In this document: piece by piece, positions 2,796 through 5,930 of the stretch
How the letters are laid out: every line of letters starts with the position of its first letter
How positions within the stretch are numbered: the stretch's first letter is position 1
Assembly: GCA_001830835.1 (NCBI GenBank)
Contig: MICJ01000030.1
Span: 1-34,118 of the forward strand
Length of the DNA: 34,118 nt
DNA from: Syntrophobacterales bacterium GWC2_56_13
GTDB lineage: Bacteria; Desulfobacterota; Syntrophia; Syntrophales; UBA5619
Reading direction: 5' to 3'
The notes under the pieces: generated by a model
What the model was told of the DNA's origin: nothing
Seen by the model: only the letters and a program-made list of their open reading frames with translations
The model's database searches: none
Made by a program: the position numbers and the translations under genes

Positions 2796-3539
2796 TCATA
2801 AAACACGCGCCAGCTTTTGTGCTTTACCTTTTGCACCTAGGACATTCATCACCATCATGGCATCACAGGCCTTGTTCACGGCCATTCCGAAGTTCCATCC
2901 ATTGATTAGGACGCCTTGATACAAAAGTAGCTCGAAGATCATAGCTTCCGAGTCGTAGACCACTCTCGTAAAGCCAGCGACATCCGCAAGATTGGCTCCG
3001 GACTTGAAAGTCTCAAGTTGCATTTGATACTTTCCGAGAAGGCAAGCAGCGAAAAAGATTGGCAATCCCGAGAAAGCATCGCTGAATACTCGCTGTGTCT
3101 CCGGATCGTCGAGGTATATTAGGTCTTTCTTTGTTGGCTTTGGAGCAAATACAATGTAGGGGCGGCGATGTTCGTCATAATCTCCGTGGCAAGCGATATG
3201 TACAAATGGCGGTCGGTTTTTCGCCAATCCTCTTGCAAGAATGGAGATGTCCGAAAGAGCATGAACATTTTTGTAGGCTACAGGGACGCCCTCTGCTTCA
3301 AGCCAAGTGCGAAGTAAATTCTCCTCTGATCGCTGAGACGCAAGATCGTTGTCAAGAGATCCTTCAAGTATCATTGCACGTGGAGGTGAGGTCTTCCTCA
3401 GGATTTTGGTTGAACAGGTTTGTGCCTTCTTTCTCCCCAACCAGCAAACCATAGTAAGGTTCGCCTTGTGCCCTCGGACTATTCCGCGAAGGGTCTGTGA
3501 CTTTGGACTGACCCAAGTACCGACAGGAAACTTGCTCAT
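2796..3539 (-). CDS. CHAT-domain (caspase-like) protease
   Basis: FVHIACHGDYDEHRRPYIVF (HG catalytic His motif) and GLPIFFAACLLGK (catalytic Cys motif) match the CHAT pattern. The track ORF begins at 3587, but an ATG at 3539 has a strong RBS (ggaagggag-ttgcca-ATG). Confidence 0.75.
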   Translation of the reverse strand: MSKFPVGTWVSPKSQTLRGIVRGHKANLTMVCWLGRKKAQTCSTKILRKTSPPRAMILEGSLDNDLASQRSEENLLRTWLEAEGVPVAYKNVHALSDISILARGLAKNRPPFVHIACHGDYDEHRRPYIVFAPKPTKKDLIYLDDPETQRVFSDAFSGLPIFFAACLLGKYQMQLETFKSGANLADVAGFTRVVYDSEAMIFELLLYQGVLINGWNFGMAVNKACDAMMVMNVLGAKGKAQKLARVL

Positions 3540-3612
3540 TGGCAACTCCCTTCCATATTGAGAAACTAAGACCCAGCCCATGCCCAAACGGGATAGTCCA
3601 GGTTAGGCAATA

Positions 3613-4566
3613 TTATTCCTGTAGTGACCTTATAAACAGACTCCAGTAATATTCGGCTGCCCCTTGCTGGGACAATGGATTCTCACGTCGATCATCAAAT
3701 ATTTGCAAGCCTAAAGGTTTGAGTTGTAAAGTATATCCATTGTCCACAACACTAAGTGATTCATTGAAACCATTTCTCTGGACATCGCTAGAATGAGAAT
3801 AAGCTATCCCAGGAGAGCCAAAAGAACCCTCCCCATAATAAACAGAGCATTCAGCAACTCTTTCACCACTGTCATAGATGAACGCCGCGAAACTTGTTTC
3901 ACTCAATCGCTTGAACCGTGTCTTGATCTGTGGGTTTCGGTTGGAGAGTTCCTGCAGTGATCCTTCAAAATAACGTGCTATGTACTCGTAGCTATCTTCT
4001 AAGAATTCGTCTCGTTCGTGGTCATCAAATTTTCGTTTAATCCTTAGATTGCTCGAACGATCTGCTTGGGGCATATCCGTTTTGGGCCTCAAATTAAGCT
4101 TATCACATGTTGAGGTCGCAGCCGATGCGTGGATTGCTTCAGCTGCTTCGCGAACATCTTTGGCAACAATTGCGAAGGCCTCGTGCTGATTGGCAAACAG
4201 CGAAACCGGTTTACCATCTGTAGGTGTGGCTCTTAAATGACCGAATGGAGCAGAGTTCCAATCACAGGGATGCAAAATCACGGGAATAACAATTGCACTT
4301 CCGTCTTTATTCTTTTCTATTGCGCGTGTCATCTCTTTTTCATAACAATAGTCCGATGCAAGGAAATGGGCACTGACAAGAAGCAGGATAATCTGAGCAG
4401 ACTCAAGCTCGGAGCTAATTGTTTTGTCAAAGTCACTGCCGGCAGTGATACGTCGATCATGCCAGGAAGAGATAACCCCTTGACGTTTCAATAGCGCCAA
4501 GTGGGTTTCTAATTCGTTTCGTAGTTCTTCGTCTTTATGCGAATAGGAAAAGAATAGATTTGCCAT
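3613..4566 (-). CDS. TIR-domain protein with an additional C-terminal domain
   Basis: MANLFFSYSHKDEELRNELETHLALLKRQGVISSWHDRRITAGSDF...ASDYCYEKEMTRAI is a canonical prokaryotic TIR, including the Glu of the SxYCxxE region. About 140 further aa follow (KRKFDDHERDEFLEDSYEYIARYFEGSLQEL...GAAEYYWSLFIRSLQE). Confidence 0.9.
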   Translation of the reverse strand: MANLFFSYSHKDEELRNELETHLALLKRQGVISSWHDRRITAGSDFDKTISSELESAQIILLLVSAHFLASDYCYEKEMTRAIEKNKDGSAIVIPVILHPCDWNSAPFGHLRATPTDGKPVSLFANQHEAFAIVAKDVREAAEAIHASAATSTCDKLNLRPKTDMPQADRSSNLRIKRKFDDHERDEFLEDSYEYIARYFEGSLQELSNRNPQIKTRFKRLSETSFAAFIYDSGERVAECSVYYGEGSFGSPGIAYSHSSDVQRNGFNESLSVVDNGYTLQLKPLGLQIFDDRRENPLSQQGAAEYYWSLFIRSLQE

Positions 4567-4586
4567 AATTTCATTGCCTTGTCTGT

Positions 4587-4895
4587 CTACATAATATGTC
4601 TCAGTTGCTTAAGAAAAGCGATTAAGTTGCCTCCAGTAAAGTCAGGCTCGCTTAACCCGCGTTGATTCCAAAGATTGAACACAGTCTTTTCGCTAGACCG
4701 AGGAGGCCTACTTCCACCTTCGCTGGGTCCGCATGCTGGAGTCGACAGAATCATGTCCAAGTCGCCTTCCTTAACAATCACCCTCACGCAAACTGATAGA
4801 CCATCCGCTTGGCGTCGGTTAATCTGCTGATTGATCCAATTCTCGTCTGCACTACCGAGCTCTCTTTCAACGTCCCCGATTCTGATTCTAATCAT
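4587..4895 (-). CDS. Small conserved-looking protein, first gene of the TIR-CHAT operon
   Basis: 102 aa, MIRIRIGDVERELGSADENWINQQINRRQADGLSVCVRV...VFNLWNQRGLSEPDFTGGNLIAFLKQLRHIM. The ATG at 4895 is preceded by AAGGAG with 7-nt spacing. 20 bp upstream of the TIR gene, same strand. Confidence 0.7.
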   Translation of the reverse strand: MIRIRIGDVERELGSADENWINQQINRRQADGLSVCVRVIVKEGDLDMILSTPACGPSEGGSRPPRSSEKTVFNLWNQRGLSEPDFTGGNLIAFLKQLRHIM

Positions 4896-5116
4896 GTACA
4901 CACTCCTTATGCCCAACGCTCGGCGTTCGTTAACCGCGCGCCGTCGCGCGAAGCACAACAAGAACCAAGTAGCGAAGCTATTTGGCACTTCTACATTACA
5001 TCATATTCACGAGGTAAAAGTATCTTTGGTTCTGGCAGCTTTTAAGGTATTAACTGTCCATCTAAAAACCCTCATGCTTAATTGCTTTGGCTCCATGCTT
5101 CGTAAATAATCTCCCT

Positions 5117-5310: not shown

Positions 5311-5930
5311 ACAAATCCCCTGACGTAGTCAGGGGTGGGGCGTGGGGGCGGAGGCCCCACACCTTTAGCGAATCAACACAGTTGATGAGCACAGGGACTT
5401 TGTTGTAACCTACATTGCAGGAGGTATTTGATATGGAGGGTTACAACAACTCGTCCCATGCAAAATATCGTTGTGAGTATCACTTTGTTTGGGTTCCGAA
5501 ATATCGTTACCATGTTTTGGTGAAGGATATCAAACCACGGCTGCGAGAGATTCTGATGGAGTTATGCGAGTGGCAGGACATCAAGGTAATAGAGGGTGCG
5601 ATATGTTCGGATCATGTGCATATGTATTTATCGGTACCGCCGAAGCATTCTCCGTCTTTCGTGATGAAGATACTCAAGGGGAAAAGTGCAGAGCGTTTGC
5701 GTAAAGAGTTTCCAGAATTAGGCAAGAAATACTGGGGAATGCATATCTGGGCACGAGGTTATTTTGTCAGTACCGTGGGTATCAACAGCACCGTGATACA
5801 GAATTATGTAAAAGAGCAGGCAGAGGAACAAATTCGAGAAGAACAGCTTAGGCTATGGAAGGACGACAGCGAATGACATTGTCAGGAGTTGTCGTCCTTC
5901 AAGGCCACCGACAAGGTCGGTGGTAGTTTA
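5311..5930 (+). mobile_element. IS200/IS605-family element carrying only tnpA
   Basis: Y1 HUH transposase flanked by subterminal hairpins: CCCCTGAC-GTA-GTCAGGGG (5317-5335) on the left and CCACCGAC-AAG-GTCGGTGG (5905-5923) on the right. Boundaries approximate. Confidence 0.8.
5433..5876 (+). CDS. tnpA: IS200/IS605 TnpA (Y1 HUH transposase)
   Basis: MEGYNNSSHAKYRCEYHFVWVPKYRYHVL...GAICSDHVHMYLSVPPKHSPS (HUH-type)...GINSTVIQNYVKEQ (catalytic Tyr). The ATG at 5433 has AGGAGG 8 nt upstream. Confidence 0.95.
   Translation: MEGYNNSSHAKYRCEYHFVWVPKYRYHVLVKDIKPRLREILMELCEWQDIKVIEGAICSDHVHMYLSVPPKHSPSFVMKILKGKSAERLRKEFPELGKKYWGMHIWARGYFVSTVGINSTVIQNYVKEQAEEQIREEQLRLWKDDSE

Follow-up and report, generated by a model that had tools for sequence, protein, structure and literature searches.

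Gene organisation of the locus

We describe a compact set of three minus-strand genes in a window of 34,118 nucleotides, the start of which coincides with the end of its contig (MICJ01000030.1 of Syntrophobacterales bacterium GWC2_56_13). In reading direction they encode a 102-aa protein of no known family that recurs as a TIR partner (4587..4895), a 317-aa TIR protein of the ThsB family with a conserved C-terminal domain (3613..4566), and a putative stand-alone CHAT (caspase-like) protease of 247 aa, the gene for which is not conserved with the other two (2796..3539). All three open reading frames were found where the initial annotation had placed them, and the calls and spacing bear out its description of genes packed closely on one strand. 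The small protein and TIR genes are 20 bp apart and the TIR and CHAT genes 73 bp, the latter figure assuming that the CHAT gene starts at the ATG at 3539. That annotation had given the CHAT gene as 3587-2796, with a TTG start. We prefer the ATG at 3539, which stands behind the ribosome-binding site GGAAGGGAG (3546..3554, minus strand) and is the most likely start, the predicted product then having 247 aa. The small protein gene is preceded by an AAGGAG ribosome-binding site (4903..4908, minus strand). Promoter and terminator scans gave results no richer than those for shuffled sequences, and no Rfam family, retron RNA included, was detected between positions 2500 and 6000 of the window.

The neighbours of the small protein and TIR genes in the window are the CHAT, methyltransferase, IS200 and ParB-like genes. 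The adjoining methyltransferase gene had been considered disrupted by an insertion sequence; it is one uninterrupted frame of 797 aa (2541-148) with a complete N6_N4_Mtase domain. The IS200 transposase gene (5415-5876) was confirmed by a match to Y1_Tnp.

The TIR protein and its small partner

The TIR assignment is solid, with a Pfam TIR_2 match (E=1e-14) covering residues 5-109 (4240..4554, minus strand). Moreover, the protein matches the PADLOC ThsB profile PDLC00420 over residues 1-316 (E=3.8e-119), that is, end to end, which makes it a member of an antiphage defence family; the same profile is matched by all 12 of the aligned TIR relatives. These relatives, with 40-79% identity, share a C-terminal domain (about residues 170-317; 3616..4059, minus strand) that falls within the PADLOC ThsB profile and is matched by no Pfam domain. 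The glutamate of the YCYE motif had been singled out as the key TIR residue, and this choice has to be revised: E76 varies among the relatives, while the glutamate that is invariant in the 12 aligned sequences is E78 (YCYEK-E-M; codon 4333..4335, minus strand), which is thus our candidate for the catalytic residue.

For the small protein no match was obtained in Pfam, PADLOC, NCBIfam or PHROGs, in agreement with the earlier remark that it belongs to no nameable family, and a Foldseek search of the PDB and BFVD gave no credible structural match. AlphaFold predicts a beta-beta-alpha-beta-beta-alpha-alpha fold (mean pLDDT 86, pTM 0.77), and among five sequences the conserved positions are Trp20, Cys36, Cys55, Trp76, Gly88, Gly89 and Ala-Phe-Leu 93-95.

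Five further genomes (of Desulfobacterota, and one Mariprofundaceae MAG) carry the small protein and TIR genes together, always on the same strand with the small gene first; each homologue of the small protein (39-77% identity) is encoded immediately before a TIR gene. In genome G273 (locus L014) a homologue with 77% identity precedes a TIR that is 79% identical to that of the window, and in a Geobacter MAG (L016/L024) a 39% homologue precedes the TIR. The remaining three loci were reached by searching with the small protein alone: L023 in the Mariprofundaceae MAG, L025 in another deltaproteobacterial MAG and L027 in a genome belonging to the window's order. In 3/3 a TIR gene follows directly downstream. 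Over the six genomes, including that of the window, the spacings are 20, 23, 22, -1, -1 and 28 bp, the two genes sharing 1 bp in both L024 and L025. The latter two loci are 95-99% identical, so the pair is represented by about five distinct loci, and TIR identity among the three closest is 76-79%. No homologue of the small protein was seen without a TIR in this small sample of loci. Taken together, the conserved order and adjacency support the small protein as a genuine partner of the TIR protein.

The surroundings of the pair are unrelated between genomes and often rich in defence genes: a KAP NTPase gene lies upstream in L023, a Fic gene upstream and type I hsdM/hsdS genes downstream in L025 (4754-10966), and a type I hsdR gene upstream in L027 (3-2791). 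The methyltransferase and IS200 genes that flank the pair in the window are unlike the flanks at these other loci. The pair was not found in any of the six other searched genomes of the window's genus, which fits, and is consistent with, horizontal gain of the two genes.

Among the TIR loci fetched, many members of the same family stand without the small partner, and the small protein is therefore not needed by every member. The family is found on plasmids and prophage-like contigs, and on the plasmids its neighbours change from one to another; on a Desulfosarcina plasmid, for example, the TIR gene adjoins a PLD-helicase defence gene. On plasmid A of Nitrosococcus oceani (L004, 3746-4963) a same-family TIR gene is directly preceded by the gene for a DUF2188 protein matching the PADLOC candidate PDC-S16, another small partner in the position of the small gene of the window. 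On the Celeribacter indicus plasmid pP73B (L008, 2789-4966) a same-family TIR gene (47% identity) lies 19 bp behind the HTH and reverse transcriptase genes of a type VI retron, an arrangement which suggests that this retron employs a ThsB-like TIR. There the TIR sits in a defence operon, its partners being the retron HTH protein and reverse transcriptase, whereas in the window the partner is the small protein.

Despite the full-length ThsB match, the locus differs from Thoeris in that it has no adjacent ThsA gene and has a dedicated small partner instead; the neighbouring thsA (SIR2-SLOG) gene by which Thoeris type I is recognised is missing beside the pair. A search for SIR2_2 in the genome of the window, which is 91% complete, gave no match while the controls were positive, and in the other pair genomes there was none in 4/5, the exception being L105 in G535. 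In the literature within our reach, most subscription papers lying outside it, no description of the small-protein family or of its constant association with a TIR of the ThsB type was found. Both appear new to us, the TIR and CHAT families being already known.

The CHAT protein and its relation to the pair

CHAT proteases are effectors in type III-E CRISPR (PMC10952713). The assignment of the third gene to this family had to be made through distant relatives, as the Pfam CHAT match (E=0.0013, 18.7 bits) is below the curated cut-off of 24, and with a profile built from 23 ordinary CHAT domains the score of the protein did not exceed that of the top-scoring sequence among 500 shuffles. Among 289 genomes of another phylum we obtained four weak matches, one of which (L094) is an unrelated PALP enzyme and was discarded. 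The other three (L091, L092 and L093) have strong CHAT domains with an AAA_16/STAND-type NTPase region behind. Their alignment covers residues 97-246 of the window protein, the shared features being a CHG...AC dyad region followed by a VYD..A..F stretch, and His118 (HIACHG; codon 3186..3188, minus strand) and Cys166 (FFAAC; codon 3042..3044, minus strand) align with the catalytic dyad of the CHAT-STAND proteins and are the candidate catalytic residues. A profile of the three gave E=1.7e-5 against the window protein and an hhalign probability of 94.7%. The earlier CHAT call therefore stands by way of the CHAT-STAND relatives, with His and Cys in place, and not by Pfam alone; the protein can credibly be assigned to CHAT, near the CHAT-STAND subgroup and lacking its NTPase.

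The CHAT-STAND proteins carry the NTPase behind the CHAT domain, whereas the window protein stands alone: at 247 aa it has no NTPase domain according to Pfam, and the roughly 50-95 residues that are not part of the CHAT domain contain no recognisable ligand-binding domain. It matched none of the NCBIfam defence models, and an AlphaFold model from the single sequence (pLDDT 36) was set aside. Elsewhere in the same genome, contig C71 (11215-12216) encodes an unrelated CHAT protein with a strong match, its frame spanning about 1074 aa.

The initial annotation had treated the three genes as one system, and here the synteny check went the other way: the small protein and TIR genes recur, and the CHAT gene was beside none of the loci examined. 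Downstream of the pair it is absent at 4/4 other loci with readable sequence (L016/L024, L023, L025 and L027), and none was detected in the flanks of all the other TIR loci fetched. The contig that carries L014 stops about 120 bases past the TIR gene, and a CHAT gene there may have gone unread. Searches of the genomes of L023, L025, L027 and L014 (G534, G535, G415 and G273) found no CHAT at the sensitivity used. Likewise, close CHAT relatives were absent from the plasmid, phage and viral-contig collections and from 297 genomes of the phylum, and a peptide-pattern search of the genome collection gave none; the collection scans used exact peptide patterns, which detect close relatives only. The sole weak match in the phylum (L003) is full of stops and was rejected. 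That the CHAT gene does not recur with the pair argues against an obligatory role for its product. Judged from gene neighbourhoods, the locus is a recurring two-gene module with a local CHAT neighbour and not a conserved three-gene system.

Possible function and surroundings of the module

TIR NADases act through NAD+ depletion or signal production, and how bacterial TIR enzymes are silenced and triggered is, to our knowledge, still poorly understood. The reading that we favour, to which we give about an even chance, takes the small protein and TIR as the functional unit, a mobile module for abortive infection of the Thoeris-like type; the small protein would gate the TIR and the CHAT would be a local addition. 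The small protein would bind the TIR, probably via its conserved C-terminal domain, and hold the NAD-cleaving enzyme silent until infection leads to its release or triggering, upon which the TIR would use up NAD+ or produce an ADP-ribose-type signal. The small protein may accordingly be an inhibitor, an activator or a phage sensor of the TIR. Its co-occurrence with a ThsB-family TIR and its compact predicted fold make it a concrete candidate for a TIR regulator or sensor, and the size of only two genes makes the pair easy to test. In the same scheme, the CHAT would be either a protease effector recruited to answer the TIR, in the manner of type IV Thoeris, or an unrelated neighbour.

A separate TIR and caspase-like protease had not been recognised as a standard layout, and this has to be corrected: in type IV Thoeris the two are encoded together in a single operon, and N7-cADPR activates the protease of that operon (PMC12847820, citing Rousset et al. 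2025). The locus resembles that system in having genes for a TIR and a caspase-fold protease close together on one strand, and differs from it by the extra small gene before the TIR and by a protease that is a distant CHAT member, is not conserved with the pair and has no visible signal-binding domain. A three-gene system of this kind, in which the small protein would license the TIR to make a cyclic ADP-ribose-type signal and a CHAT effector would then degrade proteins, has in our estimate a low though appreciable probability. The chain put forward initially, in which a small sensor comes first, the TIR signals and the CHAT executes, may also hold. The close spacing on one strand, the retention of both predicted catalytic residues in the CHAT and the operon layout reported for type IV Thoeris (PMC12847820) are in its favour. 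Against it weigh the pair loci without CHAT (0/4 of the other readable ones have it), its absence at the sensitivity used from the four genomes searched, the short CHAT protein of 247 aa without a recognisable ligand-binding domain, and the lack of an NCBIfam defence match. Should the link hold, the CHAT gene would be a putative further example, after type IV Thoeris, of a TIR that signals to a caspase-like protease.

An arrangement resembling toxin-antitoxin systems, with the small protein as a plain inhibitor of a TIR NADase toxin, no phage sensing and an unrelated CHAT, seems unlikely to us. An antitoxin gene before the toxin gene is the usual order, and the small gene does come first and is translationally coupled, with the 1-bp overlap in L024 and L025; the occurrence of the TIR on plasmids and prophage-like contigs would also suit such a system. 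The many homologous TIRs without any such partner speak against it, as they have no need for an inhibitor of the small-protein kind. We hold as rather improbable a minimal death pathway made up of a new small protein that licenses the TIR, a signal-making ThsB-type TIR and a free CHAT executioner without a STAND ATPase. A chance grouping of genes within a decayed defence island, with the three as leftovers beside IS200 and the CHAT as a CHAT-STAND remnant, would agree with the fusion of the nearest CHAT relatives to STAND NTPases, with the nearby IS200 and with a CHAT seen at the window locus only, but is very improbable given three intact frames with plausible ribosome-binding sites and the recurrence of the small protein and TIR genes elsewhere, again with intact frames.

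With respect to the surroundings of the module, a GTTGGGC box (4917-4911) lies just before the small gene in the window and is also present in L014. The whole segment GTTGGGCATAAGGAG (4917-4903) is common to the two loci, their sequences differing further upstream, and this shared boundary resembles that of an integron cassette. An integron cassette was rejected: the genome has no integron integrase above the cut-off, a complete attC could not be drawn, and the GTTGGGC box is missing from L023 and L027. Beside IS200, the window carries ParB-like, ORF6N, HNH and truncated-looking DUF1016 genes (8718-5899), a content that would fit a mobile region or an island. Finally, a gene for an AbiEii nucleotidyltransferase toxin (Pfam E=6e-30) lies in the segment 13621-12121; the partner gene upstream overlaps it and gave no Pfam match, and the two are probably an AbiE-type pair.
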